Source: Moniliella sp. 'wahieum' (lineage: Eukaryota > Basidiomycota > Moniliellomycetes > Moniliellales > Moniliellaceae). Taken from it: a stretch of 64,000 nt of DNA. The notes under the pieces were generated by a model that made no database searches, had not been told where the DNA came from, and saw only the letters and a list, made by a program, of their open reading frames with translations. Made by a program: the position numbers and the translations under genes. Location: positions 1-64,000 of the forward strand of contig RSEE01000152.1 in NCBI GenBank assembly GCA_003971905.1, in the 5' to 3' direction. Positions 1,398 to 22,101 of this stretch are shown here, in pieces. Within the stretch, counting starts at the first letter, position 1; every line of letters starts with the position of its first letter.

Positions 1398-1661
1398 ACA
1401 GCAGCCGGCTGTTGCGGAGCGCATGCGCAGCGTGCGACACTGGTCACGCGCGCACTACCGCAGGGGGGGCAGTGTTACCTTCGGGACGTGGTTTTGGCTG
1501 TCGACCACGAAGAGCTAATTACTAGGTGGCACATACAAGTCAGCTAGTAACATACACCCAGTAATGCATCCGCTGTGCACCCTCATCACCAGTCACTAGT
1601 CACTCTCGCCTTTCTTCGTTCGGTCTCCCCACCACCACCTGTTTCCTCCCTGGACCGCAGC
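1398..1661 (+). promoter_or_regulatory. Conserved block upstream of ubiquitin-like gene copy 1
   Basis: This block aligns over most of its length with the reverse complement of 22102-22345, upstream of copy 2. Shared pieces include GGAGCGCATGCGCAGCGTGC (copy 2 differs by one base), a run of G followed by CAGTGTT, GGTTTTGGC then GTCGACCACGA, and CGCCTTTCTTCGTTCG close to the ATG. The core GCGCATGCGC is a palindrome. The similarity shows that the duplication took the 5' flank with the gene. Whether this is promoter, 5' UTR or an unrecognised upstream exon cannot be decided from sequence. Confidence 0.55.
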
Positions 1662-2936
1662 ATGTATCTCCAACTCGGCACGGGATCCGTTCGGGCTACG
1701 TCGGCGTGCACGTCGATCCGCGCACCGATACCACTGCCGACCTCAAGGCCAAGATCCGCGCAACGACCGCATTGCCGCTGGACCAGCAGCACTTGATTCT
1801 CACTGGCCACGCGTACCTGGACGACGCGCGGAGGCTTGCCGAGTACGGCATTGACGAGCCGGTGTACCACGGAGCCAAGTTCCGTCTGGGGGCGGGTGGA
1901 ACTGGTGGTTCGCACGGTGGACCGAACGACGGTCCATGTGCAGCTCGATTCGGAAGATTCTGTGGCTCGGTTCAAGGCTGCGATCGAGAAAGAGGTGGGG
2001 ACGCCCGTTGGGCAGCAGCGGCTTTGGTGCGATCTCACTGACGAAATGCTCGAGGACGATACAGGGTTCTGTCGCAGTACAAAGTATCTGAATGGCTGGG
2101 GAAGAACACGTTTTCCCTGCTGGACAAGATGACCATTTTGGTCAGGACGCCATATCGGGTCCAACCTTGCGGATCGAGACGGACTCGGAAGATAGATACG
2201 AGCACGTTGATGGCCAAAAGCCACGCGCTGCATGGCACGCCTCCCCCAGAACAGATTCTGATTTTGGATCGGATCCGTGGGCCCGTTTTCGATTCGCGAC
2301 GGATCCGACCGGACCACCGGCCGCTGCGCAGGCACGGCTTCGCCGACTCCATTTTGCACTTGATGTCGCGGCGACAGGATAGGATGCGCCTGTGCCTCTG
2401 TGGTCTCCCGTTGTGGAGGCCTGGTCGACGGAACAAAGCGGTCATGCGCTTGTTTGTCCTTACGTTCACCCACAAACTTCTCATGCTCGACGTCTGTCCC
2501 GCCGATACTGTCCTCAGCCTCAAAGCGCGCATCCAGGAGGAAGAGGGTACGCTGATCCAGCAGCAGCTCCTGTGGTTCCCCTGGGCACCCATGGCCCACT
2601 TATCAATGAGCGGCGCTTGACAGAGTATGAGGACATGGAGAACGAGTCGATTTGCACTTGGTGCCACTTGCACCTGCGCAGGAAAAAAGCATGCGCGTCC
2701 TAGTGCATCATGTGGTTGGTTTGACGTAAGTGTTTGACGTGCAGTCCGACGACACGGAGCTTGAGGTTCAGCTCCTCGTGGAAGCCAAGTGTGGCGTCCC
2801 CCGGTACCAGCAGGGTAGCCACTTGATTTTTCGTGGTAAGCGGCTGGAAGAGGGCAAGAGCCTATGGGACCAGCACGTTCGCAACGGATCCAGGCTGTAC
2901 ATGCTGATTCGCATGATCGGTGCCGCAGATCCTTAT
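1662..2936 (+). CDS. Penta-ubiquitin-like domain protein, copy 1
   Basis: Five diverged ubiquitin-like units can be read in series. Unit 1 starts at ATG 1662 (MYLQLGTGS) and contains TTADLKAKIRATTALPLDQQ and LAEYGID. Unit 2 contains VELVVRTV and SVARFKAAIEKEVGTPVGQQ. Unit 3 has a PPEQILILDRI-like core. Unit 4 has MRLFVLTFTHKLLMLDV and SLKARIQEEEGTLIQQQ. Unit 5 has QGSHLIFRGKRLEEGKSLWD and YMLIRMIGAADPY. The beta-grasp layout (two strands, helix with K-A-K-I, then xxQQ-L-I) is clearly ubiquitin-like, but lysines matching K48 are not conserved. Single-base frame changes interrupt the reading, and copy 2 supplies the missing frame at several of them. The last frame stays open to 3239 past the point where copy 2 stops, through T-rich sequence that looks non-coding. 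No known family with this five-unit layout comes to mind. Confidence 0.7.
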
Positions 2937-2939
2937 TGG

Positions 2940-3571
2940 CCCGGGGGGTGCGTCAGTAGTAGTGCCTTGGCCTTGGTCGCCTTCTTCCCTTTTGGTTGTT
3001 TTTGTTTTTGTTTTTGTACTTGTACTTTTGTCTATCGATCCTATCATCATCCTCCCCCCCTCCCCCCGGATTGCATTGTACTCTACTTGTGCCTGCCACA
3101 ATCCCGCTCGCGCCGACCACTTCAATGCAGGCAGGCAGTCCCCGCTGGCACTTTGAGTCGCGGATTGTATCTTGATCCTACCTCGAGACTTTTATGGGCT
3201 TGGTCGTGGGCGCCCGTGAGGCATCAGGCCAGAGTTTGAGCTTGCAGATCTCGCAGCGATCATACATTTCCACCCCTCGCTCTTGGTCGTGTTCACCATG
3301 AACAGCGAGGGTGAGGGTGAGGAACAAGGAGGGCAGATGGCCCATGGGAGTCTGCAGTGGGTGTTGTGTTCTTGGTTGGAAAATTAAATCAACAATCCAC
3401 GGACTGCCTGGGACGCCCGAGCGGAATTTCAAAAAACTGTTTCCGCCGCGCCGTGCGCCCATTTCCCGTTTAACGTTCAACCTCAACCACGCACAGCAAG
3501 GCGTAGCGGATGGCAACTTTTTTTGTCGTTGCCTGCGTGGCGACTGGTGGTGGTCTCGTTTGTGCCTCCAA
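2940..3571. other. Intergenic stretch with T-rich and C-rich tracts
   Basis: This spacer between the first ubiquitin-like gene and POP5 has a TTTTTG-rich tract around 2,995-3,025, a poly-C tract near 3,053-3,067 and GC-rich upstream sequence of POP5. No convincing gene is seen. The tracts could belong to the 3' UTR of the upstream gene. Confidence 0.4.
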
Positions 3572-4574
3572 ATGGTTCGCTTCAAGGTACGTTGGCAGTC
3601 CTCAACCCAACGCGCGGTTCTGCTTACACCCTTTTCCTTGTTGTTGTTGCTGTTGCTGTGTTGTTGTGTGTTGTTGTTGTGTTGTTCTTGGTTCGTTCGT
3701 CTTCGCGTGGTCTGGGATGGTGGTGGTGAGCAGAACCGGTGGCTACTGTTATCCCTCAGTGCGTTACCGACCGGGTCGGACCCGAGCCTGGCATCGTACT
3801 TACGCGCGCGGAGCATGTACCTGCAAGTGTGACAGCGCAAACTATCCAGCAAACCATTCGCGCCGCACTGGAAACGTACTTTGGCGATGGGGGTGCCGGC
3901 TTGGCCGCGGGCAACGTCGCGATTCGCTATTACAACCCACGTACCGGTACCGTCTTGGTCCGTTGTGCAAGGGACCAGGCACGTTGCGTCTGGGCGGCTG
4001 TACGATGGTCTCCCACGTCGACCGGGTACGATGTAGGATCGTGTGCAAGCACTTGGCTGGTACGTGCTTGCTTCGTTTTGTCTCTGTCTCTGTCTTCGTT
4101 TTGTTTTGTCTTTGCTGTCTCCTTGACTGCTGGGGCCAGCTAGCATTGGCGTTGGGCAGTTGGGCAGCTGGTTGCGGTAGTATACGGCTGTGTATGTACT
4201 GACTGGATCTGGATCGTATTGTCTTTTATCTTTTGGCCTTTGTCTGTTGTTTTGGCTTATGGATTTTTGGGGCGACGTACACGACAACAGGAACGATCAA
4301 GAAGGCGCAGCTACATGCGATGGACCAGGAGCGAAGGCAAATTTACCGTCTGCGGCGTCTGGAGCGGGCGAAGGAACACGCGCACGCGCGCCGCCGTGCC
4401 CAGGCGCTCGACACGCTGTTTGCCGCAGAAGGGGCTGGGGGAAAGAAGGGTGCTGGGACCGGGGGCAGGGGCACGGGCGCCGGGGCGCTGGAGGAGGATC
4501 CAACGGTGGTGGAGCAGATTGCGCAGACTCAGCGCCACCTCCTCGCCTTGGCGCCTGAGGGGCGTGAACGTTGA
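3572..4574 (+). CDS. POP5: RNase P/MRP protein subunit Pop5
   Basis: Pop5 is a small subunit shared by RNase P (5' maturation of tRNA) and RNase MRP (rRNA processing), acting in the nucleus and nucleolus. Exon 1 (3572-3586) gives MVRFK, the family's usual start. An intron with a GTACGT donor and CAG acceptor runs 3587-3733, then NRWLLLSLS follows. Exon 2 carries the Rpp14/Pop5 core: ALETYFGDGGAGLA, AIRYYNPRTGTVLVRC, CVWAAV and CRIVCKHLAG. A second intron (4060-4290, GTACGT...CAG) leads to exon 3, GTIKKAQLHAMD, which is the conserved C-terminal signature, followed by an Arg/Gly-rich tail and stop 4574. One single-base frame change lies early in exon 2 and another between WAAV and CRIV. Identification is firm from the ordered motifs and typical length. 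Confidence 0.9.
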
Positions 4575-4737
4575 ACGAACACCAATCGATATCCACTCGG
4601 GGCAGCAGCCCATCGCATCTTGTCAAGCATAAGTACGCCTTCCTGTGCAAAGGGGGGCCGGTGCAGACAAGCCAACCACACACGTGCACGTGACGGCCGT
4701 TGCACCGGCGCCTACCTCCCCAGCTTGCCCTGGCGGA

Positions 4738-6980
4738 ATGGGGCGCCTGGGCGGAATAGCGGAATCCGGAGTGGTGCCCCGTTGTTGCACTGGCCAACCC
4801 CCGTCTGCCCCACCACCACCACCACCACCACCATTCATGCCACCGCCACCGCCACCGCCACCGTCCTCGGATGGCTGGACGTGGGAGGCGCACCGATGCG
4901 CATCTACTGGTGTCGAGTACCAGCTGGGCCAAACCACCATTCTCCGGCCCAACTTTGCGCCCACCGCCACGGCCCCTGGCGCGTCCCCTGATGCGCCCTT
5001 ACCTTCTTCCCTCCCGCTCCCTCCCAGCCGCATCCACCACCGCGCCATCCGTCTAGGCGACTGGCTGGTGACCACTTCCCGCGGTCCTATTGGGAGTGCG
5101 CGTGAACTTGCGACGCTCGAGACGCGCGTTGGCATCACGTTGCCTGAAATGGTCTTCCCGCACAACCGACTTGTGCTCCTCCACCTCCCCTCCCGTCGTA
5201 CTTACACATTTGATCCTGAACATGCCTTAGCGTCTGTCCGTGGTGCCCACCGTCCACCCCCCCCCCCGCCTCGCTCAACCCCTCGGCTCCTACCGACGCA
5301 CTACTCAAGGTGTCCCATGCTTCGGCTTGGGGACAGGCTCGGTACGTCCCCCCGCTCTTGCCTCATCCCCTCGTTGGTCCTGTCTACCTGTCTGCATGCC
5401 TACCTGCCTGCGGGACCTAACGTCCTGTCTTCCTATGTGTGCCTGCTCCTGCCGTTACTACTGCTGGTGGTACTGCTACTACGCGGTGGTACTGCTACTC
5501 CCAGTGCGGCCGGGCGATGGTGAAGAAATTCGATTGGACGTATTCGACGCTGTGGCCTGGCGGGGTGGGTAGCGCATCGGCGGACTGGGACGTGAGCGAG
5601 ACGGATCCGCTTTTGCGCCTGGGGACTTGGATCCGAACTGTGGGTTTACACGTGCGACGGAGCGTACGGACCGGATCCCCGTGGAACAGTTGGGCGCAGG
5701 ATCGGAACCGATCTTATTCTTTGATCAGCTCATCTTGTTTGAAGATGAGCTGCATGATAATGGTTCTAGCGTCGTGGATGTTAAGGTGGTACGTTGCGGA
5801 TCGGTCGTGTTGGGATGGGAATGGGAATGGGGGGTGGGGTGGTGGTGTGACCCAACGAGGTGGAGCAAAATGCGGTTCGGGTTGGAGCCATGCGCAGATG
5901 GACGGAGATACTGACGACGAAGGGATACTCTGACGTGGGGGTGTTGTTTGGATTTGGTTCGGATCGGTTTGGTTCGGATCGGATTGGATCGGTTTGGTGT
6001 CCTTTCATTGACGGCGTGGCACGGGAAGCGAGTGATGCCCTCGGCCATCTTGGTGTTACAACGATTCTTTCTGCGCGTGGACCAAGTCACGTTCCGCGTC
6101 CTGGACACACGCTTGTTTGTCCCTTTTGTCCAGGGCGCCTTGCGCGTCTTGCGCTCCCACCCGCCTCCCCATCCTGACTCGTCGCAGCACGACGGCCAGC
6201 AAGCCCCGCGCCGCGCCAAGGTGATTCGGGACGTGCAGGGGTCCCAGTGGTCTTATGACGGCGTGAAACGTGTACGTACCCCACCTCTTCCCTCTTCCCT
6301 CTTGCCTGTGACGACACAGAGCCCCGAGGGGTAGAACAGTACCTGACCCTACCTTTCGAATTGGAATGATGGGATGGATGCGGATGTACTTCGTACCTCC
6401 CTACTCTACGCTACTCTACTCCCTCCCTTTCCCTTCCCCTTTGCGTTTGATTTTGTCTTTGTCTTGTGACTTGTGCCTTGTGCCTCGTAGCTCCTCCCGC
6501 CGTACAAGCCCAATGACCTCACGCTCTCGGACTCCAACTGGGTCGCCGAACGTATTCGCCATCGTACTGAACCCCCTCTCTGGCGCTGCACCTCCTTCCA
6601 TGGCGCCTTCCATGGCGCCTTCCATGGCCCCTTATATGACTGCTTCCATGGCAGGTGCACCGCTGGGTCGCACTCCGGGCCTAGGTGCCAGACCTGGATC
6701 CGGACGGGGGGTCGGCACAGGGGGAGTGGTAAGTTCAGGACCGTTAGCTGCGACCCGGACTCCCTGGGCTTCCCGACCTACCCTCTCCTCGTCCTCGTTC
6801 CCTTTGGCTATGGCTTCCCCTTCCACTCCGACTTCCACTTCCACTCTGACGTCGAGTTCGATGTCGGCTACCACGCCGGGGACGGCTATCCCCCAAAGGG
6901 AGCCGGAGCGGGAGTCGGAACGCGAGACGTTGCCGGCATGGGAGGGCCAAGGGGCTGTGACCGAGGTGGGGTGGCTGTGA
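4738..6980 (+). CDS. TIP41: TIP41-like protein, TOR/PP2A pathway regulator
   Basis: TIP41 binds TAP42/PP2A phosphatase complexes and modulates TOR signalling in the cytoplasm. A proline-rich N-terminus (two runs of eight or more Pro) precedes the TIP41 domain. The domain shows LPEMVFPHNRLVLLH, KKFDWTYSTLWPGG, EPILFFDQLILFEDELHDNG, then VMPSAILVLQRFFLRVDQV and VLDTRLFVPF, and finally LPPYKPNDLTLSDSNWVAER, which closes the domain in this family. Introns are 5342-5504, 5789-6028 and 6272-6490, all with GTACGT donors. A Ser/Thr-rich tail with SMAP repeats runs to the stop at 6980; that tail needs one frame change after the domain. Start ATG 4738 is in frame with the Pro runs; an earlier GTG at 4645 is not a likely eukaryotic start. 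The gene begins 163 bases after POP5. Confidence 0.9.
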
Positions 6981-7644
6981 CATGTGACTTGTCACACAAT
7001 GCCCCATGTTCCATGTCACACAAACACAATGTCACATGTCACATCCCTCACTTCGGCTCGGCTACTCCTGTTCTCCAGCCCCCCTTGCCCCTCCCCGCGG
7101 CCATCGAATCGAATCGAATGGAATGGATGCATTGGAGTGCATTCTACTCCATTCCTACCATAATGCATCCGCTCTGCTTTCTGCTCCTGCTGCGTCGCGT
7201 GCGTCCTCGGGTACCATCATGCATCGGTACATCAGTACATCAGTCCCCAGCCATGTCCTCTGCTGCGCTTCGTGCGCTCGGGCCAAGGGGGGCGGGAGGT
7301 GGCGCATGGGCCAGGCACACGCCGGTCTAGCTCTAACGTACGTCTACCACAGACGTCTGTCTGGTCTACGCTCCGTCGTAGAACGCACAAGACAGAAGAC
7401 AGAAACGCACAAGGCAGAACGTAGAACACAGACCCCATTCGTACCGCACCAAAACAAGTAAAAACACAACCAACCACCACAAACCAACTACCACAACCAC
7501 CACAACCAACCACCACAACCACCGCAACCAAACAAACAAATGTACACATCGTTGCGCATCTCTACATTGCCATCTTGCCTTTTCTTATCTTCTCACCCTC
7601 GCCCTCACCCTCACCTTCGCCCTGACCGGTACCAAGGCAAGCCT
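6981..7644. other. Convergent intergenic region, TIP41 and kinesin 3' ends
   Basis: The spacer holds short repeats only: CATGTCACA-type repeats near 6,975-7,040, ATCGAATCGAATCG near 7,102, GTACATCA repeats near 7,228 and an ACAACCACC-rich tract at about 7,465-7,530. No coding sequence is supported. The genes on either side converge, so this holds both 3' ends. Confidence 0.4.
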
Positions 7645-9989
7645 TCACGCGGCATCCCCACCGCGCACAACGCGCCTCGCTGGCCCGACATGCGTCGCAT
7701 TGACCTTAGCTGCGAACCGGAGAGAGCAGAGCGACTCGGCCTGGTGCGCGAGCATCGGCGACAAGGCCAACAACATCAACGTCTTGCTGTTCCCGCCCAA
7801 CGAATTTTCAGTAACCACGTCAGCGTCGAGTTGCGGTAGGGAATGTGCGGTGCGGCCGACTTGGTACTCGGGTTGGAGCTGGGGTTGGAGGAAGTGGGGT
7901 TGGAGGAGGATGGAGCGCGGTGCTGGGCGGTAGACAGGGCGGCAATCACATCAGCCAAAGCTGAGAGGGACTTATAATGCTCTGAGCTTCGCGGAGGCGT
8001 TGAGGGTGGGCAGCGGAGCCTGAGTTGCTGAGCCGTTCCGAGCCAGCAAGGTCGACGAGAGGTGGAGGGTAGCGTCTGTACGTTCGCCCGTGTGCGGGTT
8101 GGAGCCCTGTACGCGCAGGGCAAAGACCGAGTGGGAGCGGGAGGAACGTTCGTTCATCAATGTGGCAGCTACTTGTCGTCGAGCCTTGGCCCGGTCCAGT
8201 AGCGCAAACACTTCCCTTGGCGAGGCGAGCGGGACAGTCACTGTGCCTGTGACGGTGGTGCGACCCGTAACTGGATCGTGTTTGATTTCGTGCTTGGTCT
8301 GGTCCAGCGCTTGCGAACCTAACAGATCATTGATCGTGTCGAGGTAAATCTCTAACATTTGCCCTTCAAACTCGTACGTCCACCCTACCGAACGTAACTG
8401 CTGCGCCAACTTCCAGAGCAAATGCAGCGCGCGGAATCATGCCTGCGTCCGGATGCGCCTCGGCTTCGGCGTCGGGTAGACATCCATCCAGCTCCCCCGC
8501 CTCCCCACTCGCACCAGAACTTGGTCCTGCGGCAGAGGCAGAGCCAGCAGCGGCACCGGTGGGGTGGTAGTACTCGGGAGGACCTTCGAGGGTATGTGTC
8601 TTTCCCGAACCCGTTTGGCCATAGGCAAAGATGGAGACATTGAATCCGTCCAAGACGCTCTGGACCAAGTTAGCAATTTCGGCAAACACTTCCGTTTGCG
8701 GCGCGGTGGGACCAAAGACGCGGTCGAGGGTAAACGTATGCCGCTGAACCGTACTGCTTCCCATGGCATTCTCACCCGCAGCAACGACTTGGAGTTGATT
8801 AGCTTCGCGTCCACCTGGGTATCGGAAATCAGCCAACGTCGCCTCCACGCCCGCATGGCCCGCTTGCACCCGATCGTTCCGTACCGCCGGCCGGACACGT
8901 GCAAACACTCGAATGTTCCCGCGCAATTCTTGGATTTGGTTGTGGAGTTTCCGACGTAACGTCTCGGCCTGTCGCAGCTCCGTGACCAGGTACGCGTTTT
9001 CCCGCTTCAACCCGTCCTCATCGGCGTTGGCCAGGCGCAACTGCACACGCATCTCTTCCACTTGCCTTGTTAGGTGCGCAAGTTGCGATTCTAACTGCGC
9101 CTGCGTCGCTGCCCACTCCGTTCGATCCCGCGTCGCTTTCCCTTGCGCCGTGCGAAGCGAACTCAGTTCCTCCTCGGCTAAGTGAAGGTTGTGCTCCAGC
9201 GTACGGATGCGCGCGTGGAGCGGTTCTTCCACCCTAGCCAGGTGCGCTTGGTGCGCTTGCTCCAGAGCAGCCGTTTCTTGTTCGTGTTGCCGTTTCAACG
9301 CTTCGAGCTGCACGCGCACACACGACCATGTCAGCTTCGTTCTCAACAACAACAAGCACCACAACAAGCACATTCACCACACCAAGACCAAACGGGGGGG
9401 AACGGTACGTACCTCAGCATCGAGCTGTTTCTGAGCGCGTTCACGCTCAGCAGCCAGAGTGACACTCGTACGGTAACTATGGAGCTCAGCTTGAAGCAAA
9501 GCCAACTGATCTTGCACTTGAGTCCTACGCGTTTGCTCCGTAGCCAAACGCGATCGCAGTTCCTGTTGGTCCGCGTCACAGCTACCATGGTGCTGTAGCA
9601 ACCAGGCTAGCTGCTCCGATGCTGGTCCTGACCCTGACCCTGAGGAAGTGCCTGACCAGAGCAGAGCCTGACCCCGAGCCGGAGCCGGAGCCAGACGCGG
9701 CGAGTGGGTCTGTGGGTGGATGTCCAGCCGAGGCGGAGCGGCGCAGACGTGCGCCAACTGCTCCGGCCGTAGCAGCAGTAGCTAGAGCAGAAGGGAGCAT
9801 GTGCGGGCGGACGACGCCGCGTAATCCCGTGCTCTTTGTGCTGGCGGCAGTGGGGAATCCAGCGGGGTGGGACGGGAGACGGTTGATGCGTTCGGGTGCG
9901 GTGGTGAGGGGAGCGCGTTTGGCGCTGCGCGCGCCGCGTGGCGCGCTGCGCGAGGTGGAGGAGCGTGTGCGCGTCGAGGCCTTGCGCAT
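7645..9989 (-). CDS. KAR3: Kinesin-14 (C-terminal motor, Kar3-like)
   Basis: This is a minus-end-directed spindle/microtubule motor. The N-terminus (from ATG 9989) is basic and Ser/Thr/Gly-rich, fitting a microtubule-binding tail. A long coiled coil with many Gln, Glu and Leu follows, interrupted by an intron at 9308-9412 (GTACGT donor, GCAG acceptor). The neck QIQELRGNIRVFARVRP directly before the motor is diagnostic of kinesin-14. The motor shows the P-loop AYGQTGSGKTHT (about 8,589-8,625), switch I NERSSRSHSVF, switch II DLAGSERL, and NSLGGNSKTLM near the end, then SLRFAAKVNA and stop. Frame changes fall near 8,433, 7,975 and 7,808, each inside an otherwise invariant motif, which argues for sequence error over decay. 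A Ser/Gly-rich insert lies between the P-loop and the GMIPRA motif. Confidence 0.92.
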
Positions 9990-10567
9990 GGCGTGGGTGG
10001 TGGGAAGGGGGGGGGGGGAGAGAAGTAGAGCGCAGTGGGGGGTGCAGAGGACAGTGGGAATGGAAGTGGCGATGGAGAGGATAGTGGCAGTGGAGGTGGC
10101 GGTGAAGAGGGCGAACCATAGAAATCGATTCCCCCGCAAAGGATGGGTGTTTGGTTGTGTTTGGACGCCCCGACGCGTCCGCCGCCTTGCCTTACGTCAC
10201 GTGAGCCATGGGGTCATCGGTGATGGTCACCCACTCGTCCCCACCACACTCACTTAACCACTAACCCTCCTCTCCACCATCCCCAATCTACTCTCCACCA
10301 TCCCCACTCCACTCCCCACCATCCCACTCCACTCCCCACCATCCCCACTCCCCTCTCCACCATCCCCAACCTACTCTCCACCATCCCCACTCCCCTCTCC
10401 ACCATCCCCAACCTACTCTCCACCATCCCCACTCCCCAATCCACAGTACTTGACAGCGTGCATTCCGCCGCGCCATCTCACCACAGGGCCGTCTCCACAG
10501 ATCCGCCAGCGCTGCCTCCGCGCCGCCTAATAGTACCGTCCCTGGAGGGGCAAGGTGCGCGCCTCGG
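9990..10567. repeat. Intergenic region with CCACCATCCCCA minisatellite
   Basis: Between the kinesin 5' end and the SRC1-like 3' end, positions about 10,255-10,440 are an imperfect tandem array of CTCCACCATCCCCA units alternating with ACTCCCCT and ACCTACT. The complementary strand is G-rich (TGGGGATGG). The array keeps all frames open, which makes spurious frames. No gene is supported in the remainder. Confidence 0.75.
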
Positions 10568-11022
10568 TCATCTCGGGCCCAACGGGGGCGGCAGTGGGAG
10601 CGGCTGCAGTACCCTGCTCGCCTCTACTGCCGATACGCCCGTACGATCAGCGTCCCCCTCTGCCTCCCACTCTGCAGCCACGTCTGGGCGGAACATCTGA
10701 CTGGCCTCTGCCGACGTGCCTGTCTCCTCGGGTCCGAACGAGACACGCGAGGACGTCCCCGTGTGCGTGGGTATAGGCGTGGGTATGGGGGGACCGGTAG
10801 GGATAGAGGTCGAGGGGTTAGTGGTGAGGTTAGTGGTGCTGGGCAAAGGACCGATCCATTCCCATGCCTTGACCCAGTCGCCAGCATGCTTGACTTGCCG
10901 TGTGCGCACGTTCGTGTTGGCTTGGACGATGGAGCTGACTTGTGCCCAGAGACGGTGGCGGTGCCCCAAGCGCGGTTCGTGTGCTAACACTGCGTCGCGC
11001 AGTTGCGCACTGGCGAGCCACG

Positions 11023-11053
<31 letters not shown>

Positions 11054-13374
11054 TGCGCCTGCCGAGCGTTCCGCAGGCGTTGCATCGTGCTGGTCTTGGT
11101 GTTGGTGTTGGTGGTGGTACATGGCATGGCACATGGCCGCATGCTGCAAGCGAGCCAAGGCGATCTGGACCAAATCGCGTACTTGCCGCTTAGTCTGTGC
11201 CGTGGAACGTACCCGCGCGCGCACCCACACCACACCCAGGAGGAGCAGGATCACACTCGTGCCCAACACGCGATGGCGACGTACGAACGCGCGCACCACC
11301 CCACGCACACGACATCCCATAGGTCGAATCGCACGCGCAGTAAATAGTAGCGTTTGCGTTTCCCCGTCCCCCAGGCCTGCTTCCGCCCCGGCCCCGGCCC
11401 CGGCCCCGCCAAAGCGCAGAACAGTAAGTGTACCTTCGGCCTCGAGGTCCGTCAGAGCCAACTGCCACACCTGCGCAAACTCGTCTGCATCCACTGCTGT
11501 GCCTGCGCGGCGCAGTTGCGCCCACACTTGCTCCTGCGCCTCGGGCACGGACAGCGCGGTGGCGCGGCGCGGATCCGAGGCCCACTCCGAGGCCGAGACC
11601 GAGTTCGAGGTCGAGGTCGAGGTCGCGGTCGCGGTCGTGGGGTGGGAAGCTAGCGGCGGTGGGGCACGGGGGGGTACGCGGTGACACAGGACTTGTCCAT
11701 GCCACGTAGCTAGGATGTGGAGGAGGAGTTGACCGACTTGCGTGGCGCGGAGCTGAGCGTGCGTGTCGGGGGAACAGTGGGGTGCGAGTGCCCCCAGTGG
11801 GACTAAAGCCTGTACTGCACTGGGCAAAGTTGTCCAGCGCGAAGCTGAGGCCCGCAAGCGTACCGACTCGCACCCGTCCCACAGCCCGTCGTGGCACACG
11901 CTTTTCTCGGGACAGGGCGTGCACACTGAAGGTAGCCACGAGACAGGTACCACCTCGAGCGGGGACAGCACCCGTCGTCTCCCCTCGTGCTGGTCGTGGT
12001 CGGGAGTGTGGGTGTGGTTGGTGTGTGGGCACGAGGGTGGTGCAGCCGCGCAGGATGAGAGCTGGACCCGGAATCGCAAAACCCCAGTGCGCGGGACTGC
12101 TGTGCTCGCGCATACAGGACCAGTCCCACGACCAAACTCGTGCCCCACAGCAGCAGTCGTACCACCGACCACAGCAGGACCCGCTTCCCGGCCTGGGCCT
12201 GGGCTTGTGCGCCCGCCGGAGCACCTCTCCCTCCGTCTCGGACAACCTTCCGTATCCATCTCCGTAGTCGTACTCGTACCCGTCCTCCTCGTCATCGTCA
12301 TCGTCCTCCAGCCCATCGTCGTCGTCCTCATCGCCGTCATCGTCCTCATCCTCCTCGTCATCCTCCTCGGCCGAACTGCTCGCTGCAACCCCGCTTACCT
12401 CGCCCAAGCGGGGGGGAAGACGGCGGAGACGCATACCCAACTTCGGGACCGCACCTCCCCTCCATATCCTTGTCGTTCTCCCTGTCCTTGCCGTTCTCCC
12501 GTACGCCGCGGCCAGCCCAGGCGCGTCTTGCGACCCTCGCCTTCACCTTCACCTTCGTACCTAGGTCCAACCCCAACCCCAATCCCAGACGTAAACCCAG
12601 ACGTAAACCCAGACGTAGACGTAAACGTAGACGGCACAGCAGGCCCGGTGGTGTGGTGTGGTACTTTCTGCCCAACTAGGTCGCGGCGTGGACGTCTGCA
12701 CCCGGTCCCGCACGCCAGCACACCGCGCAAGGGTCAGTACGGGGTTACGGGTTACTTACCCTCCAACTAGCAACTAGCCCTGGAGTAGGGGCAAGGGTCA
12801 ACGCGTGTGTATGTGGGGGGAAGGGTAGACACCTACCCCCTCAACCCGGGGACTGGGAGGGGAGGTGGGCCCCTACCCCCCCACCACCCACCGGAACAAA
12901 CGTACCTTCCAAAGGAGGCCATGGCCTCGTTCGTCCCGCTCCGCGTCACCGCCTCACTGGACTCACTGGCCTCACTGGCATCACTGGCCTTACGGGCGGT
13001 ACGGGCGGAAGGTGCGTCGGGCCGGTGGTGTGCGGGAAGGAAGGTGCGGACGGACGAAGCTGGAACGGATTGTCAGAGGAAAAGTTATGATCGTACTGAG
13101 GTGGGTTGTATCTTCCTCGTCTTGCTCCTTCTCCGCTCGTGCTGCCATCCGGTTCGTGCTCGTGCTCTTGCCCCTGCTCTTGCTCCTGCATGATAACATT
13201 ATGGAACAGGGCGAGGAGGTGAGCCTTGCGCGCAGTGGCTGGGACGCGCACGCCGTGGTGCCGCAGAATGGCACGTAGACGCGCGGCAGTCGCGCTGGAC
13301 GGGTCGAACCTCCCGCTGAGGTAGTCGTCGTCGTCCGTGGTAGAAGTGGAAGTGCTGGGGGGAGGCTTGGCCAT
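10568..13374 (-). CDS. SRC1: Src1/Heh inner nuclear membrane protein (HeH + Man1-Src1 C-terminal domain)
   Basis: LEM-like inner nuclear membrane proteins tether chromatin and help recruit ESCRT factors to nuclear pores. From ATG 13374 an acidic stretch (TTDDDDYLSGRFD) leads into a HeH/SAP-like helix-extended-loop-helix: ARLRAILRHHGVRVP then HLLALFHNVI. A long low-complexity linker follows, with Phe-Thr-Ser-Gly repeats near 12,590 and an Asp/Glu run at about 12,266-12,374. Transmembrane segment 1 lies at about 12,110-12,184, followed by a lumenal part with CTPCPEKSVCHDGLWDGCE. Transmembrane segment 2 (about 11,217-11,275) precedes the C-terminal MSC domain, whose signature is LWAQVSSIVQANTNVRTRQ plus DWVKAWEWIG. 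Frame changes occur along the length. It is transcribed away from the NDUFAF7 gene from a shared 328-base interval. Confidence 0.85.
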
Positions 13375-13702
13375 GGCGATGGCGCTACCGGTGGTGGGGA
13401 TGGGGGTGGCGGTGGGGATGAGGATGGTTTTGGGGACTTTGGGGTGGGACGCTACCTCACTTTGACAAAAAGGCCGCTGGATCACCATCCAACGCCCCTC
13501 ACGCGCCCAATTGACCCCAGGTTCGATCCGCAGCGGCTGCATATTTTTTCGCGTCTTGTGCGTGCTCGGCTCGTCGGCGATCGATCGCTGGATGATGGAT
13601 GATTGCATCTTGAAACCAAGCCAGCCTTCCAACCCAACCCCCGCCGCCTTCTTCTGCGGCCCCGCACCCACGCCGACAGCAACGACACCCACCACCACCA
13701 GC
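13375..13702. promoter_or_regulatory. Bidirectional interval SRC1 / NDUFAF7
   Basis: The two start codons face away from each other across 328 bases, so the promoters must overlap or sit side by side. The interval is less GC-rich in its centre, with CATATTTTTTCG near 13,539. I see no clear TATA box. That it acts as a shared promoter is inferred from layout only. Confidence 0.45.
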
Positions 13703-15767
13703 ATGTCGACCATGCCAAAGCTCATCCGCCTCGCCTCCACCCTCCCCCGGCTCTCTTCCGCCCGCCTAAACCCCTTCACCCCCCTCGCGCCTCTCGCGCC
13801 CTTGGCGCCCTTGGCGCCCTGGGCGCCGCGCGGCCGGCGCGCCTTGGCCACCACAGCCGGGCCGGAGGAGCAAGGCCACGCCGCGGCGCAGCAAGCAGAG
13901 GAAGACGAAACGAGGCGTTTGGCGACGTCGGCACGGATCACAGCGACCATGGCAGACATCCTAGCCAAGTCAATCAAAGTGGATGGACCAATGAGTGTGG
14001 CGAGTTTTATGCGTGCGGCGCTTTTGGACCCGGCGTTGGGGTACTACGCTGCGGCCCATGCGCCCTCCTCGCCACACGATAAGGAACGCCATGTAATTGG
14101 TGCCAAAGGTGACTTTGTTACTTCCCCTGAGATTACGCAGGTGTTTGGAGAGTTGTTTGGGATTTACTTTGTGGCGCTTATGGTGATGTGCTCCGTGCTC
14201 CTCCTCCTCCTCCTCCTGCTTCTGCTTCTGCGTCTGCGTCGGCTTCGGCTTCGGGTTCGGCGTCGGCTTCGGCTTCGGCTCGCCCACCGCCGCCTATTCG
14301 TCTCGTCGAGTTTGGACCTGGACGCGGGACGTTGCTGCAGGACGTGTTGCGCACGTTTGCGCGGTTCCCTGCTGTGGCAGATAACTTGCATGCCATCCAT
14401 CTGTCGAGACGTCCGAGGGACTACGTCGACTTCAATGGCAGCGATTCAGGATGTGCTCAATGCCAGCTCCACCCCGGCGGGTGCACGTCGTACCCTCATC
14501 CCTATCCAGCCGGGGGAAGAACCACCGCCGTACGAGCAAGGCACACTGCAAGTCCAATGGTTCGACTCGATTCATTCGGTTCCGATCCGGGCGAGAGGTA
14601 CACCATGTTGATCGCTCATGAGTTCTTTGATGCGCTGCCGATTCATGTGTTTCAGAAAACCCAAGATGGATTCCGAGAGGTGCTGATTAACCTCAAGAAC
14701 CCGGATAAGCCCGCTTCGGCCCAAGCTGCCGGGTGTCCACTCACAAGGCCTCCGACTTTATCCAGGCCCACCTCGACGCCAAACGTACGAGTAACAGCAA
14801 GGCCAACTCCGAATCCCAATCGGAATCGGAGGCACCTGCACCCGCTCCGAAACCCGAGTTTGAGTACGTGCTGAGTCCCGGCCCAACAGCGTGGTCGGAA
14901 CTGCTTGCGTCGCGCAATCCGCGTTTCCAAAGCATGCAGCCTGGGCAGCAAGTGGAGATTTCACCGGACGCATGGGCGGCAGCGCGCAAAGTAGGTGAAC
15001 TGGTAGCTGGACGAGAAGCACCGTTACCCACTTTACCATCTGAAGAACCTAAGGACGAAATTGGTAAGCAATAAAAGCCATGCTTGTTCCGATTCGGAAC
15101 GACGTGCCGCAGCTCGCGCTCATTCCTCCCACGGTGGCGTCGCGGCCATCGTCGATTACGGTGACGAAATTCTTTCCCCAACTCGTTCCGCGCTTTCAAA
15201 CATCACCATATTGTCGATCCCCTGGCAACCCGGGCACCGCCGACTTGACTGCCAACGTGGACTTTGTCCATGTCAAACATGCGATTGACTCGACTGACGG
15301 TACGTTGCCTCAAAAAAACTCGCCTCGTTCCCCTTCCTTGTTTTTCTTGTTTTCTCCCTTATTCTCCCCCCCCCTGTCTTGCACCGTTGCTCCCCTCTCC
15401 TCTCACCCTACTCTTGGCCACATCCTGACCCACTGACCCACTGACGCACACCAGCAACAATCCCTCGGCCCAGCCGAGCAGGGCCCGTTCCTCGCGGCGA
15501 TGGGACTGGAACTACGCGTGAACAAGCTACTTGCCTCTGCGCCAGCGGATCGACGGGAAGTGATCACCCAGCGGCGTACCGCGTGATCGACATGACCTCC
15601 ATGGGCAAAGAGTACAAGGTCTTAGGCGTCAAAGCTCCGCTTACGATGCAGTCAACCGTACCACAGCCCCAAGTACTCCTTTGTACCCTTTTGAGTACCC
15701 GCACGAAGGTGACCAGCCACCTATCGTCGAGGCGGAGGCCGATGCCGACCCTACAACGTCTTCTTAA
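13703..15767 (+). CDS. NDUFAF7: NDUFAF7-type mitochondrial protein arginine methyltransferase (MidA family)
   Basis: NDUFAF7 methylates an arginine of the 49-kDa complex I subunit (NDUFS2) and is needed for complex I assembly. Start ATG 13703 opens a basic Arg/Ser/Ala-rich leader fitting a mitochondrial presequence. Family motifs follow in order: PMSVASFMRAALLDPALGYY, GAKGDFVTSPEITQVFGELF, the SAM-binding motif VEFGPGRGTLLQDVLRTF, LIAHEFFDALPIHVFQ, FEYVLSP, IVDYGDE and ANVDFVHVKHAI. An intron with a GTACGT donor runs 15300-15454. A Ser/Ala-rich insert sits just before the SAM motif and a charged linker after the FFDALP motif. A C-terminal stretch FEYPHEGDQ leads to stop 15767. Several single-base frame changes are present. 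The assembly function implies this organism keeps respiratory complex I. Confidence 0.9.
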
Positions 15768-16713
15768 CCGTGCTCGTGTGCCGTGGAGTGAGTGGCATGC
15801 CGTGCGGGGCGTGTCTTCTCGGGGTCCTGCCGTGGCGGGCCGTGTGCTGTCGTCGGCAGAGGGTCCGGGAGAGACTGCCACCCTACCCTCGGGCCTCATC
15901 AATCATCCTGGACTTGGGTCTTAGATCTTACCACGCAATCGTCCTATCGTCCTATCGTGGTGTCGCTCGGTCAACCCCCTGCTCTGCGTCTTTCTGTGGA
16001 TCTGGCTGAGGACGGAGCGGTGGACCTCAGGACCCTAACCCTGACCCTGACCCTGACCCTGGCCTTGACCTTGACCTTGACCTGACCTGAGATGCGTCGG
16101 TGCCGGTCCAGGCTTCCTTCCCTCCGTTGCACATGGGTGCCACATGCGATGTACCTCCCTCCCCCGCACCACACCCTACCTAGCAGACCAAAGACCACCC
16201 AATCGACGTGATTAATAAGTGCCGTGTGCCCTCTGTTGCGCACTAGAGCGCAGTGCATGGTTCTGTCCGTAGACGCAAAAGGCACCTACCACCCACATTC
16301 CATTCCGCCACGGTACGACCGCAACGACGGCTAGTAGGTCTGAGGTGCACCGGGCGTTTGGAGGGGAAACTAAGGCCAAGGCTGCATGGTACATTGGTGG
16401 TGGTTGGGTTATTCCGTCCCGCTCCCATCCGCCCCGGCCCCCTCGTGTTGCACCGACCCCCGCGCTGATTTACCCATTAGGCATTCCATTCCGCCCGGCG
16501 CCGCGGAACGCCGCGTGCGGCCTGCGGGGGGGGCGAGACGTGGCAGGCTTAAGCGGTACCGGTTACCCCAGCACAAAGCACCGCACCACGCACCGCTGAT
16601 TAGCGGCCAAGCGGTAAACGACCCCCGCCCCCCATTCTCCCTTTTTTTCTTCCTCTTCTTCCACCTCCACTCCACCTCCACCTCACCTGGCCCCGGCCCC
16701 GGCCCCCACCCCG
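15768..16713. other. Intergenic region with CCCTGA repeat
   Basis: This lies between NDUFAF7 and the derlin gene. Around 16,033-16,090 there is a short array beginning ACCCTAACCCTGACCCTGA and drifting to CCTTGA units. The derlin-proximal end is C/T-rich with TTTTTTTCTTCCTCTTCTTCC near 16,645. No convincing gene was found, although some open frames exist. Confidence 0.5.
16033..16090 (+). repeat. CCCTGA array resembling variant telomere repeat
   Basis: One CCCTAA unit is followed by four CCCTGA units and then CCTTGA units. This could be a chance microsatellite or an interstitial stretch of degenerate telomere-like repeat. Confidence 0.6.
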
Positions 16714-17490
16714 ATGGACCTTGGACGCGTCCCCCCCATCACGCGCGCCTGGGCTGGCCTGACGCTAGCGCTGGGCGTGGCGGAGCACGTTGGACTCGTG
16801 TCGCAGTTCCAGCTGTGGTTCAGTCCACGGCAAGTCTTTGTCAAGGGCCAAGTGTGGCGTGTGGTGAGCTGTTTTCTGTTTTTGGCCAGCTGGACCTGGA
16901 CAGCCTGATGCACATTTTCTTCACGATGCGGTACTGCTGGATCTTGGAGGACGAGTCGTACCAAGGACGCAAAGCGGACTACGTTTGGCTCCTGCTCTTG
17001 TCCTCGGGCGCACTACTCTTCCTCAGCCCATTACCGGTCAGGAATTCCTAGGTTCAAGCTTGGCGTTTGTCCTGCTGTGTATCTGGTCCCGCCGTAACCC
17101 CACATTCACATTTCGCTCTTTGGTCTGCTCACTGTGCTGCACCTTACTTCCCAATCGCTTGGGTCGCCCTCGAGGGAATGTTCGAACTCACTTTCAAACA
17201 TTCCCCCGATCCATCCTCTCCCAACTCATCGCCATGGCCGTCGCTCATCTCTACTACTTTGCCATCGACGTATGGCCACAAGAGTACCGCTCCGCAGGGA
17301 AAACCGTTTTGCAAACCCCTTCTTTCTTGTACGTTCCCCCACCCCTTCCGTATCCTCCTCCTTTCACCCCTCCCTCTGTCTTCTCTTCGCCCCTCCCCCT
17401 TTGGCTCTCGAATAAGCCTGTTGGCTATTGACTGACGTTGCTATGGGCTGGGGTGCGCGCATCTGGCACAGGTTGCTCGACGATCAGTAG
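16714..17490 (+). CDS. DER1: Derlin, ER membrane ERAD protein
   Basis: Derlins are rhomboid pseudoproteases that help move misfolded proteins from the ER to the cytosol. From ATG 16714, PPITRAWAGLTLALGVAEHV matches the derlin start, and GQVWRVVSCFLF contains the conserved WR motif. Next come IFFTMRYCWILEDESYQGRK, DYVWLLLLSSGALLFLSPL and FLGSSLAFVLLCIWSRRNP, then ALEGMFELTF and AHLYYFAIDVWPQ ending TVLQTPSFL. These give about five to six membrane segments, as expected. An intron with a GTACGT donor begins near 17,331 and a CAG acceptor lies at 17,471. The stop given (17,490) is the nearest one; in another frame the last exon continues as an Asp-rich tail to about 17,620, which may be the true C-terminus. 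At least three single-base frame changes occur. Confidence 0.85.
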
Positions 17491-18409
17491 ACGCCGACGC
17501 CGACGGCGATGGCAACGGCGATGGCAACTTCGATGGCGGCGGGAGATGGGATGGAGATGACAATGACAACAACAACGATGGCGATGACGATGGCGACGAC
17601 AAGGATGATCTCGTCGGTTGCGTGTTCCCCCTTCCACCCTCCACTCTTCCACTCTTCCACTCTTCTACCCTGCCACCCTGCCACCTGCCACTTTTCTACC
17701 GTGGCCGGACTTCCTCGGCCGGTGGGATCATGTCGCTGTTCGCTTCGAGTCGCCCCGATTGGATTGGATTGGATTCGCTTCGATTCGATCGCCTGAGTTG
17801 GCATTCCTATTCACGTTGAGTCCCAGCTGGCTGATAGCTTCGTCCCCACGGCAGGACAGGATAGGACAGGCCACGAAAGTGAAACGTGGCGGACACTCTT
17901 GGGAGGCTGTGGTGTGTAGATGTAGATGGCAGATTGCTATGACCGCAAGAGCAGGAGGATGAGGATGAGGATGGGGGGAGGGGGCTCTGGCTTGGGTTAG
18001 GTTAGGTTATGGGAGTGGGGAGTGAACGTCAGTTGAACGTTGAACGTTGAACCCAGAGGCCGGAGGGCCCAGGCCAAGAGAGCCCCTACACGAGTGAATC
18101 GGAGCATCGGCTGGACCTGGGTTCCCAGTGGACTCTGTTGCTAAGTATGATTAACTCTGGTGGGTTGGCCTTTGCTAGATTGGGATCACCGTCGTACCGG
18201 GCAGTTGCACCGATGGTCCGGCGGGCGGGGAAGCGGAATGGGCGAGGCGATGGTGTGGTGCATGACGACGTCCGTGCGCAGCATTGAACATTGCAACGGG
18301 CCTGATGTGAGCAGGCTGAGCTGAGCCTCCAAGGGTCAGATCCAGAGCACAAGGCAGGAGGGCCGACGGGAGACGCCCCCACCACACCACACCACACCAC
18401 ATCTTCGCC
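17491..18409. other. Intergenic or 3' region after derlin
   Basis: The first 130 bases are made of GAC/GGC/AAC triplets (17,490-17,620), encoding an Asp/Gly/Asn-rich stretch that may be the derlin tail. C/T-rich CCACTCTTCCACTCTTC repeats follow near 17,640, then GGATTGGATTGGATT near 17,758, GGTTAGGTTAGGTTA near 17,996 and GTTGAACGTTGAACGTTGAAC near 18,031. No other gene is seen up to the CACACCACACCA tract before the epimerase start. Confidence 0.4.
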
Positions 18410-19514
18410 ATGGCGGTCGAGCAAGTGCACATCGCCACGCCGCCGGCAAGTCGCAGCTCACTGTGCTCACGTACGGCGCCACCGTGCTCAGCTGGAAGCG
18501 CGACGGCGAGGAACAACTCTTCCTCAGTTCGCTTGCTGCGCTGGACGGTTCAGCCGCCGTCCGCGGTGGCATCCCCATCGTCTTTCCTATCTTTAACAAC
18601 CCCACCCGCCCCATTGCTGGATCCATCGACGCGTACCCCCCCAAACTCCGCCAGGGCCTGACAAGATGCCCAACATGGTTTCACCCGCACCACCGTCTGG
18701 ACCTACCTCGGCGCCAAGGACGGCCCCGGAGGCGAGAAGGTCGTCTCGTTTGGTACGTGTTCGTCCCTCCGCTGTCTGGCTGGGCGTGCAAGAACTTGCC
18801 GCCCTCCTGTCTGTCGTCATGCGTTATGGTTGGTTGAAAATGTGAGAGGTGCTGACCATTCCTTTGTACTCTCTTCGTCTGTTCGTCTGTTTGCTTGCTT
18901 GCTTGGTCTTTTTGTTTTTGCTGTTTCTTGAGGGGGGTAGAACTCGACACGGACGACCACAAGGACTTTGCAGCGTACTATCCTTGCACGTGAAGCTCAC
19001 GTACCAAGTGCGAATTAGCGATGTATCGCCTACGCTCACCACGTCACTCCATGTAACCAACTTGAGCGAGGACGAAGCGCCGTTCCACGCGCTGTTCCAC
19101 AACTACATCCGTGTGCACTCTGCCACCACAGCCCAGCTGACCGGCCTAGCCTCCGCCACCTGCATCGACACGACCGACGCCAACCGAACCAAGACCCACA
19201 CTGCCGACCCGCTCGTGCTCCACGCCAAACCGATCGATAGTGTATTTTACAACGTTCCCGGCGACGTGGCCCTGGCCGAACCGCAACCGGAACCAGGCCG
19301 CACACTCAGCCTCCATGCCTCCCCCACGTTCCACACTACGACCGTATGGAACCCAGCCGAACAAGGCGCAGCTGGAATTCGTGATCTCCACCCGGGCGGT
19401 TGGAACGAATTTGTCTGCATCGAACCCGGTAGCATCAAGGACCTTAACTTTGTTGCCCCGCACTCCACCTGGACCGCTTCCCAAACGCTTACCGTCACCT
19501 CGACGGCACCGTGA
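18410..19514 (+). CDS. Glucose-6-phosphate 1-epimerase (aldose 1-epimerase family)
   Basis: This enzyme interconverts the alpha and beta anomers of hexose-6-phosphate in the cytosol (yeast YMR099C type). Start ATG 18410 precedes VLTYGATVLSWKRDGEEQLF, SAAVRGGIPIVFPIFNNP, and, after the intron 18753-18940 (GTACGT donor), ELDTDDHKDFAAYYP, LTTSLHVTNLSEDEAPFHAL and LFHNYIRVHS. GWNEFVCIEPGSI holds the conserved Glu of the family active site, and the protein ends TSTAP with stop 19514. Length (about 300 residues) fits. Frame changes occur soon after the start and around 18,665. The RGGIPIVFP motif separates this from galactose mutarotase. Confidence 0.9.
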
Positions 19515-20832
19515 CTCGCGATGCAGCTGCATCTGTAGCCGGTACCCGGTAACGGGCACTTGGTACGCGCACGGGCGCTTAGGGTCCTCTACTGTGGCTT
19601 ACCCTGTATGCCTCTTGGTTTAGGTTCGCCACTGAGGACTGAGTACTGACAGTCAGCTTCCTGACTCGCTTGCGCTAGGGAACTGTACCCTGCGCACCGA
19701 AATTATCGATCATCGTTCTTGCACAGCCACCTGGGCCGGGAGAGGCGCGTGACACAGTCCTCCTCGTCCCATTGCCTTTGAGCTGTAGAACTTGTAGAAC
19801 TTGTAGAACTTGTAGAACTGCAAACTGTTGAGCCTGATGAACTGGGCAGCTGGGGGCGCATAGGTCTCCCCCCTTGTCCCAAACGAAGGGATAAGATCTA
19901 AGATCCGAACATGCGACATTTGTGGGCGGGCTGTGCTCCCTTCTGCACGGTCTCATGCAGGGTGCGGGCGCTGGCCCGCAGCGCGCAACCTACAAGTTCG
20001 CGCCACAGTGTGGACCGAGCTGCAGTCTGAGGCCTGAATACGAACAAACCGAGCTAGAGAGACCCAGTGAGATCTCGGTTCAGGTCTCTTTCAGGCCTCG
20101 TTTCGGTATGTTTGTCCTTGAACGTAGGGCGAATCTCATGTGTGGCATCGTGCCCGTTTACTTTACCTCTCTAGGTTGCCCGTGCGGCAGCCGCGTCTCC
20201 CCTGTTTCCCCGGGCCTGTTCCCCATTCTTCCTCTATTATGTTGTTTCCCTTTCAGTCTCTGTCTGTTAGCAATGGTTCTTCGTGGTTTCTCCCCAAGGT
20301 CCATCGTCGTCGCCCCCCTCCTCTCCTGGCCAATTGATCGACCCAGTACAAGCACCTCCTCCTCCTCTTAGTCGCACCTCTAGCTCCCACTTCTTCAGCT
20401 CTCAGTTCCCCAGCCCAAGTCCAGCCCAATTCAGCCACGTGTGGTCCTGCCTAGTACAGCCACGCCACCCCCTGGCCCAGTCCAGCTCTAGTCCAGCTGT
20501 GTGGATCCTCCCCGCGGCCCCTCCCCGTCGCACAAGGCTTCAGACACGCTACTGCTTCCCACACAGCTTTGTGCCACACTTGCAGCTGCCTCTGCTGTTC
20601 GCCGAGAAGCCTCTCCGTGTCCCTAGCTCTGCTCGGACGCACCAATCAGCGCAAGCGCGTACCTACCATGAGTCGACCTTAGGATCTAAGGGATTGTACC
20701 CATAAACTCCTGGGCGGGCTCCCTGGCGGCGCGCGCCCGTGTGACAACAGGCAAGTTACAATAGAAGAGGCGAACGCACTCTTCTTGTGGTACGGCCCGC
20801 GGGCATCCAATATCCAGGGGTCACCGGTGAAG
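19515..20832. other. Intergenic region with TTGTAGAAC repeat
   Basis: About 1.3 kb lies between the epimerase and the 3' end of the second ubiquitin-like gene. A four-unit array of the 9-mer CTTGTAGAA sits at 19,782-19,820. A Pro/Ser-rich open frame around 20,283-20,705 is judged compositional. No RNA gene or conserved protein motif was recognised. Confidence 0.4.
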
Positions 20833-22101
20833 TTAATAAGGATCGGCACCGCCGATCATACGAACCATCATGTACAGCATGGACCCGTTGCGAACGTTTT
20901 GCTCCCACAGGCTCTTGCCCTCTTGTAGCTGCTGACCACAAAAAATCAAGTGGCTCGCCTGGCGAAACCGCGCAATGCCTGCCCGCTCCTCGATTTGCAA
21001 CTGAATCGTCACCTCGGTATCTTCCGGCCGCACGTCCAGCACGTACACCGAGTCGATCAAAGTACCCACGATCACCCGCATCCCCCCCGCGGGGAAGCGG
21101 TACCATGTGCAAAATCGTCTCGTTTTTAATATCCTTATGCTCCCACACGCGCTGCTCGTCCTCCAGCGCACCAAGCGAGCTCCATGGGAACAATAGCGAT
21201 TGTCGCTCGGTCGTAACTCGTCTGTTCCTCAATGCGCGATTTGAGACTGAGCACCGTATCGTCCCGATGCACGTCCAACATCAGCAGTTCGTGGGTGAAC
21301 GTCAGGACAAACAGACGTCTCACCGCTTGTGTCGACGAGGCATAATGTTGCATGTCGTGAGACCACACAATCCCATCTCGTCCTCGAGCCGCGGCATCAA
21401 GTGCACGACCGACCCGCTCCTCAGCCCGCACCGGTGCAACGGCATCCGTCCGGCCGGATCCGTTTGGATCGCAACACGGGCCCGTCGATCCGGTCCACAA
21501 TCAAAATCTGTTTTTCGGGGGGGACATGGACGTGCCGCACAGGGCCTGGACTTTGGCCATGAACCTGTTCGTATCCTCTCCCAATCCGTCTCGATGCGCA
21601 CCGTTGGTCCCGACGGCCTCTGACCCAAACGTGCATCTTGTCCAGCAACATAAACTCGTTCTTCCCGGGCCATTCGCATACTTTGTACGTGGACAGAACT
21701 CGTGTATCGTCCTCTAAGTGTTCGTTGGTGAGATCGTACCATAGCCGCTGCGAGCTAACCGCCGTACCTACCTCTTTCTCAATCGCTGCCTTGAACTTAC
21801 CCACAGGATCTTCCGAATCGAGCTGCACCCGCACCGTCGTCCCGTCCACCGTGCGCACAACCAATTCCACCTGCCCCGCCAGACGGAACTTCACACCGTG
21901 CCTCAGCCTCGCCAACACCATACTCGGCCAACGTCCGCTCATCGTCCAGGTCCGCGTGGCCAGGGGAACCAAACGCTGCTGCTCCCGCGGCAGCTTGTTC
22001 GTCCCGCGGATTGGCCTTGAGGTCGGCGATGGTGTCGGTGCGCGGATCAACCTGCACGCCGACGCAGCCCGAGACGGATACCGTGCCAGTTGGAGAAACA
22101 T
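20833..22101 (-). CDS. Penta-ubiquitin-like domain protein, copy 2
   Basis: Inverted paralogue of the gene at 1662-2936, with the same five units in order. ATG 22101 gives MFLQL, then DPRTDTIADLKA and LAEYGVG (unit 1). Unit 2 is VELVVRTVDGTTVRVQLD with KFKAAIEKEVGTAVSSQRLW. Unit 3 begins near DKMHVWVRG and has PPEKQILIVDRIDGPVL. Unit 4 is RRLFVLTFTHELLMLDV with ETILHMVPL at its end. Unit 5 is MRVIVGTLIDSVYVLDV, QASHLIFCGQQLQEGKSLWE and YMMVRMIGGADPY, then TAA at 20833. The last unit ends in Gly-Gly followed by ADPY, reminiscent of a ubiquitin precursor needing C-terminal trimming. Single-base frame changes are present but at positions different from copy 1. The function is unknown: it could be a modifier precursor or a structural array. 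Confidence 0.72.

Follow-up and report, generated by a model that had tools for sequence, protein, structure and literature searches.

The genome of the basidiomycete Moniliella sp. 'wahieum' (69.5 Mb in 223 contigs) encodes a small family of genes built from five distinct ubiquitin-like units, two members of which, copies A and B, form an inverted pair within the first 64 kb of contig RSEE01000152.1 (C152), the stretch of DNA that we analyzed and refer to here as the window. Our best reading, which we put forward tentatively, is that a polyubiquitin gene diverged to encode an uncleaved five-unit chain that would probably serve as a noncovalent scaffold or decoy. That the genes descend from a polyubiquitin whose units stopped being homogenized is well supported; from the sequence we infer the further mechanism, in which an uncut chain would act without being conjugated.

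Copy A extends from its first ATG at 1662 to 2936 (+) and copy B from its first ATG at 22101 to 20836 (-), placing the inverted pair where a sequence-only reading of this DNA had put it. A genome search recovered a third full-length copy, C, on contig C162, in which units 1 to 3 lie within one 269-residue frame, and these three are the only copies of the family seen in the genome. That reading had described all five units as ubiquitin-like; against the Pfam ubiquitin profile (cut-off 25.4 bits) this held for units 1, 2, and 5, which score 29.5 to 34.6 bits, whereas unit 4 falls just under the cut-off (25.0 bits in C, 25.1 in A) and unit 3 reaches 12.6 to 12.8 bits. On the plus strand, copy A unit 1 (1662-1892, boundaries approximate; 30.8 bits at 1691-1891) is 72% identical in amino acids to unit 1 of C over 76 codons and changes frame soon after the ATG, and unit 2 (1893-2128; 31.5 bits at 1887-2063) changes frame at its start and inside. 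Unit 3 (2129-2390, end approximate), which has internal frame changes, is 62% identical to C unit 3 over 81 codons, and unit 4 (2444-2690; 25.1 bits at 2450-2617) also changes frame internally, while unit 5 (2691-2936; 30.8 bits at 2733-2939) lies in a single frame and is 56% identical to B unit 5 over residues 1 to 82. On the minus strand, copy B unit 1 (21874-22101), delimited by alignment with C, has several frame breaks; unit 2 (21637-21873) is an open frame, within a stretch (21625-21900) that is 96% identical to C. Unit 3 of B (21375-21636, end approximate), also delimited by alignment with C, has internal frame changes and differs from C by 8 synonymous and 1 nonsynonymous changes over 82 codons, and unit 4 (21082-21323), with 5 synonymous and 1 nonsynonymous changes over 66 codons, changes frame inside and at its junction with unit 5. 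Unit 5 of B (20836-21081; 30.3 bits) is an open frame terminated by a TAA at 20833-20835.

The five units are clearly different from one another and occur in a common order in A, B, and C, so that these are not ordinary polyubiquitin genes with near-identical units. When 12 unit rows and the fungus's own ubiquitin are placed in one tree, units cluster by position rather than by gene, with support for units 1 to 5 of 100/100, 100/99, 100/99, 73/88, and 95/95; the support is weak for unit 4, and the groups of units 1, 3, and 4 comprise only two rows each. Unit 2 of A thus falls with unit 2 of B and C, and one piece of A unit 3 with unit 3 of C. Taken together, the five position groups show the minimum possible number of changes, 4, which was reached in 0 of 200 shuffles. 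This clustering indicates that the five-unit layout predates the gene duplication, as the sequence-only reading had argued, and the fixed order has been preserved in three copies of one genome. Corresponding units of A and C share 57 to 74% of their residues, and the units are 30 to 44% identical to ubiquitin (local alignments of the ten longer pieces), with unit 5 at ∼35%.

Several lines of evidence point to polyubiquitin, a classic example of concerted evolution, as the source of the family. All 12 unit pieces score higher against the fungus's own ubiquitin than against human NEDD8, with margins of 2 to 27. NEDD8 as the nearest source is ruled out by these scores, the margin for C unit 4 being just 4 points. 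The best solved sequence matches, among those listed (60 of 289 and 60 of 326), are ubiquitin and linear ubiquitin chains; in fold comparisons linear tetra- and tri-ubiquitin stand at the top of the 50 matches listed, with ISG15, OASL, and FAT10 lower. The template modeling (TM) scores of these fold matches over the whole model are low (0.25 to 0.37), because the arrangement of the units differs. The model of B unit 5 (mean predicted local distance difference test [pLDDT] score, 81.5) matches ubiquitin at a TM-score of ∼0.8. With ubiquitin chains as the closest solved relatives and the layout of a polyubiquitin, the genes are best seen as descendants of polyubiquitin. The five distinct units of the sequence-only reading are borne out, but the architecture looks derived from polyubiquitin rather than unrelated to it, and the outcome named in advance as fatal to it, that all hits would be to ordinary polyubiquitin, came about by half, through the nearest relatives and the layout.

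It is very unlikely that the array is instead a tandem of unrelated ubiquitin-like (UBL) domains, such as those found in shuttles or in enzymes of the USP7 type. USP7 does carry five divergent UBL domains in a row, with less than 15% mutual identity as described in the available part of PMC4457826, and in structural alignment ubiquitin is no better a fit for unit 3 than other ubiquitin-like folds are. The present units, in contrast, are close to ubiquitin, which is itself their best sequence match among the matches listed, and no Pfam match to the USP protease domain or the USP7 UBL families was seen across the units and 9 frames flanking them, a scan that is limited by frame breaks. A UBA domain, as in the Rad23 and Dsk2 shuttles, was likewise without a match in the units and these 9 frames, nor was any other shuttle domain seen there; the TIGR00601 (rad23) model reached 21.1 and 25.3 bits against a cut-off of 207.3, spanning one UBL only. 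The suggestion that the protein is a shuttle in the Rad23/Dsk2 sense thus finds no counterpart in the frames scanned.

The junctions between the units bear on how the product would be processed. The family shares with the polyubiquitin genes UBI4, UBB, and UBC a head-to-tail series of 76- to 79-residue ubiquitin-fold units in one gene and, in B and C, a C-terminal Gly-Gly followed by a short tail, but its units are unlike one another, and the release motif is absent from three junctions of C and from 1|2 and 2|3 of B. Units abut without a linker at 1|2 and 2|3, as in polyubiquitin, at 78 and 79 residues; the sequence at junction 1|2 is LAG-Q in B and C and is hidden by a frame change in A, and at junction 2|3 A, B, and C all have LDK-M, neither with a Gly-Gly. 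Junction 3|4 departs from the linker-free layout, being in C a linker of ∼20 residues without Gly-Gly, while 4|5 lacks Gly-Gly in A and is masked in B and C by a frame change within a run of G, which leaves its residues uncertain in these two copies. Although the ancestral polyubiquitin would have been cleaved at every junction (as set out in the part of PMC11354881 that is available), these junctions make it highly improbable that the product is a precursor of several free modifiers, and the earlier proposal to that effect is disfavored.

Most core positions of the units remain hydrophobic, while most of the ubiquitin lysines are gone. Hydrophobic residues occupy 14, 16, and 14 of 17 core positions in units 1, 2, and 3 of C and 14/17 in B unit 5; in the unit 4 pieces of B and C the counts are 8/8 and 10/12, and in pieces of A 9/12, 10/11, and 11/14. 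Aligned ubiquitin lysines are still lysine at 13 of 52 positions over nine pieces, and at none of seven in B unit 5. The Ile44 patch is altered in C units 1 (Val44 with Gly68 and Arg70) and 2 (Trp44) and partly kept in units 3 to 5, with Ile44 and His68 in C unit 3, Leu44, His68, and Val70 in C unit 4, and Leu8 and Ile44 in B unit 5. We hypothesize that a five-unit head-to-tail polyubiquitin gene escaped homogenization, that its units diverged until it encoded five different ubiquitin-like domains in a single polypeptide, and that this diverged gene was then duplicated into A and the B/C lineage. The chain would be produced and left uncut, since junctions 1|2, 2|3, and 3|4 lack the Gly-Gly needed for release, and with most ubiquitin lysines gone it would not serve as a ubiquitin donor and would be ill suited to chain extension. 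Such a peptide-bonded, ready-made linear ubiquitin-like chain, with differing units of which some carry an Ile44-like patch, would most likely bind ubiquitin-reading proteins noncovalently, as a scaffold or competitor.

Polyubiquitin genes often end in Gly-Gly and a short tail, and the C terminus of the family raises the question of conjugation. Copies B and C end in VRMIGG-ADPY, which aligns with the LRLRGG of ubiquitin and keeps Arg72, and the chain might accordingly be trimmed after the Gly-Gly, with loss of ADPY, and attached whole to targets in the manner of the two-unit ISG15 or FAT10. Unit 5 does model as ubiquitin, and the presence of ISG15, OASL, and FAT10 among the listed fold matches would fit, but copy A ends in MIGA-ADPY, with the last glycine changed to alanine, Arg74 is replaced by Ile and Leu73 by Met, and the terminal motif may be mere inheritance; on these grounds we consider a conjugated modifier rather unlikely. 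A fuller version, in which a five-unit fungal modifier would be conjugated whole through its trimmed Gly-Gly, each unit with a partner of its own, as a larger, independently evolved counterpart of ISG15, seems to us a long shot. ISG15, FAT10, and the tandem UBL of OASL share with B and C unlike ubiquitin-like units fused in one chain and the C-terminal Gly-Gly; the present chain differs from ISG15 and FAT10 in having five units rather than two and in having arisen in a fungus, and any conjugation of it is putative.

Several observations weigh against an uncut, functional chain. Retention of the terminal Gly-Gly in B and C would be superfluous for a pure scaffold, and the five-unit family is known from this genome alone. 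The profile score of unit 3 lies far under the cut-off, even though the unit forms a beta-grasp in its model, and confidence in the three-unit model is low (mean pLDDT of 58.5, with unit 1 mostly below 60). Both structure models were built from alignments that included the fungus's own ubiquitin, and they cover the three-unit stretch and unit 5. Unit 1 shows no constraint between B and C, with 6 nonsynonymous and 2 synonymous changes and a ratio of nonsynonymous to synonymous substitution rates (dN/dS) of 1.02 on these 8 differences. In the assembly, none of the three copies can be read through as one open frame; unit 5 of copy A is interrupted by an in-frame TAA (2727-2729), and A has no stop at the point where B and C end, and the density of breaks specific to B or C (15 over ∼1.26 kb of each copy) exceeds the 1 per ∼1.5 kb found in the chaperonin genes of this genome. 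The sequence-only reading presented the pair as genes and made no mention of breaks, whereas neither A nor B is intact in the assembly.

These breaks, together with the lack of constraint on unit 1, give its main support to the alternative that the genes are decaying pseudogenes, that is, a diverged polyubiquitin that was functional until recently and of which all copies are now dying. In a three-way alignment, the coding span has 5 gaps that are not a multiple of three in A, 15 in B, and 8 in C, with 4 common to B and C; the 15 indels specific to B or C are each of 1 or 2 bases, and 4 of them shorten no run of equal bases. The other 11 do shorten such a run, with 42% of coding bases sitting in runs, and this bias is as expected of long-read errors. 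Essential genes are also frame-broken. At least one clean frame break is present at 27 of 40 chaperonin loci (37 breaks in 54.9 kb of matches), and since this control tallies only breaks between profile-continuous pieces, and not stops inside pieces, the figures are a lower bound; on inspection, 6 of 8 ubiquitin-S27a loci are broken and 2 read through. Within the window, a kinesin gene appears as overlapping pieces in different frames, a methyltransferase match has three stops inside, and an epimerase gene loses its frame between the probable ATG at 18410 and 18445.

Substitutions also argue against decay. Over 403 codons, copies B and C are separated by 22 synonymous and 14 nonsynonymous changes, a dN/dS of 0.19 (bootstrap range, 0.09 to 0.38, and thus below 0.4), and A and C give 0.38 (0.29 to 0.49); in neither comparison did dN/dS reach 1 in any of 2,000 resamples, so that the value near 1 expected of pseudogenes is found for neither pair. 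Divergence between B and C is 3.1% at coding sites and 10.9% upstream. The comparison of B with C shows purifying selection. As essential genes are likewise broken and the substitutions preserve the code, most of the frame breaks are probably assembly noise, although copy A may be genuinely dying, and we regard decay of the whole family as unlikely, if the most serious of the alternatives. Programmed frameshifting is ruled out, as most breaks differ among the copies. A precedent for function behind an apparently broken gene is UBBP4, a transcribed ubiquitin 'pseudogene' that is functional though annotated as broken, whose variants lie a few residues off ubiquitin and are conjugated (according to the available part of PMC7066184); the units described here differ from ubiquitin by 56 to 70%.

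Ordinary polyubiquitin and housekeeping genes are frame-broken across the genome (for example at C24:533587-534485 and C1:1109573-1110233), and the assembly looks like an unpolished long-read product. Breakage of housekeeping genes on this scale calls for caution with any pseudogene call in this genome.

We found no fungal family with a five-unit architecture in the literature searched, which covered few subscription papers, and the accessible part of a survey of the beta-grasp fold (PMC1949818) names no such fungal array. Tandem units that vary within a gene have been described for polyubiquitin genes of the algae Bigelowiella natans and Guillardia theta, but the variation is mild as described in the available part of PMC6332867, unlike five units at 30 to 44% identity with lost junction motifs. 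Scans of viral and prokaryotic contigs for close relatives of C units 1 to 3 turned up 15 and 72 pattern matches, respectively, none of them confirmed, and since these collections are not fungal the scans say little on distribution. If the five-unit layout has indeed been kept while each unit diverged under selection, the family would be a natural experiment in further uses of a ubiquitin chain, and a naturally uncleavable linear ubiquitin-like chain, if such it is, would be a useful tool.

Copies A and B are 72.6% identical over ∼1.5 kb in a self-match of the window that joins 1413-2937 to 22326-20835 and takes in 225 to 249 bases upstream of the ATGs, with nothing matching further outward (blastn, E value of 1e-10). 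The conserved upstream stretches lie at 1413-1661 (+) for A, where they presumably comprise promoter and leader, and at 22102-22326 (-) for B. Collinearity between contig C162 and the window begins at 18.86 kb and extends to ∼40 kb of the window, in pieces at 67 to 92% identity, so that B and C lie in corresponding segments and are alleles or later duplicates. The frame-broken epimerase gene that served as a local control, similar to aldose/glucose-6-phosphate 1-epimerases (18410-19514 [+]; PF01263), adjoins both B and C and is collinear from 18862 onward with C162:2-1042 at 91.7%. No counterpart of copy A was found; C218, the contig collinear with that side, ends at about 11.1 kb of the window. 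Set against C152, C162 and C218 show a second collinear set of contigs with ∼67 to 92% identity per piece, and this set and the 8 ubiquitin-S27a loci point to a genome that is duplicated, hybrid, or highly heterozygous. The genome also has 35 chitin synthase matches, as befits a fungus, whereas a search for the flagellar IFT46 domain gave no match, as did its controls.

One further stretch of DNA that matches the family, and a short one (104 bases, 73%), lies inside an ordinary polyubiquitin on C1. Other PF00240 loci, on C67, C57, C97, and C42 (4 of 82 matches, inspected by eye), gave no sign of kinship with the five-unit family; at C67:338927-339462 and around C57:58021 inspection shows what we take to be a Ddi1-like UBL segment twice in tandem, perhaps through exon duplication. 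Between A and B, a Der1-like frame at 16374-17048 (+) (PF04511, 33.3 bits) would represent an endoplasmic reticulum degradation gene, its position there probably being due to chance. A frame at 60052-60969 (-) is a putative Vps36, with what look like GLUE and zinc finger parts, and a tandem repeat of about eight copies with a 21-base period occupies 10270-10435.

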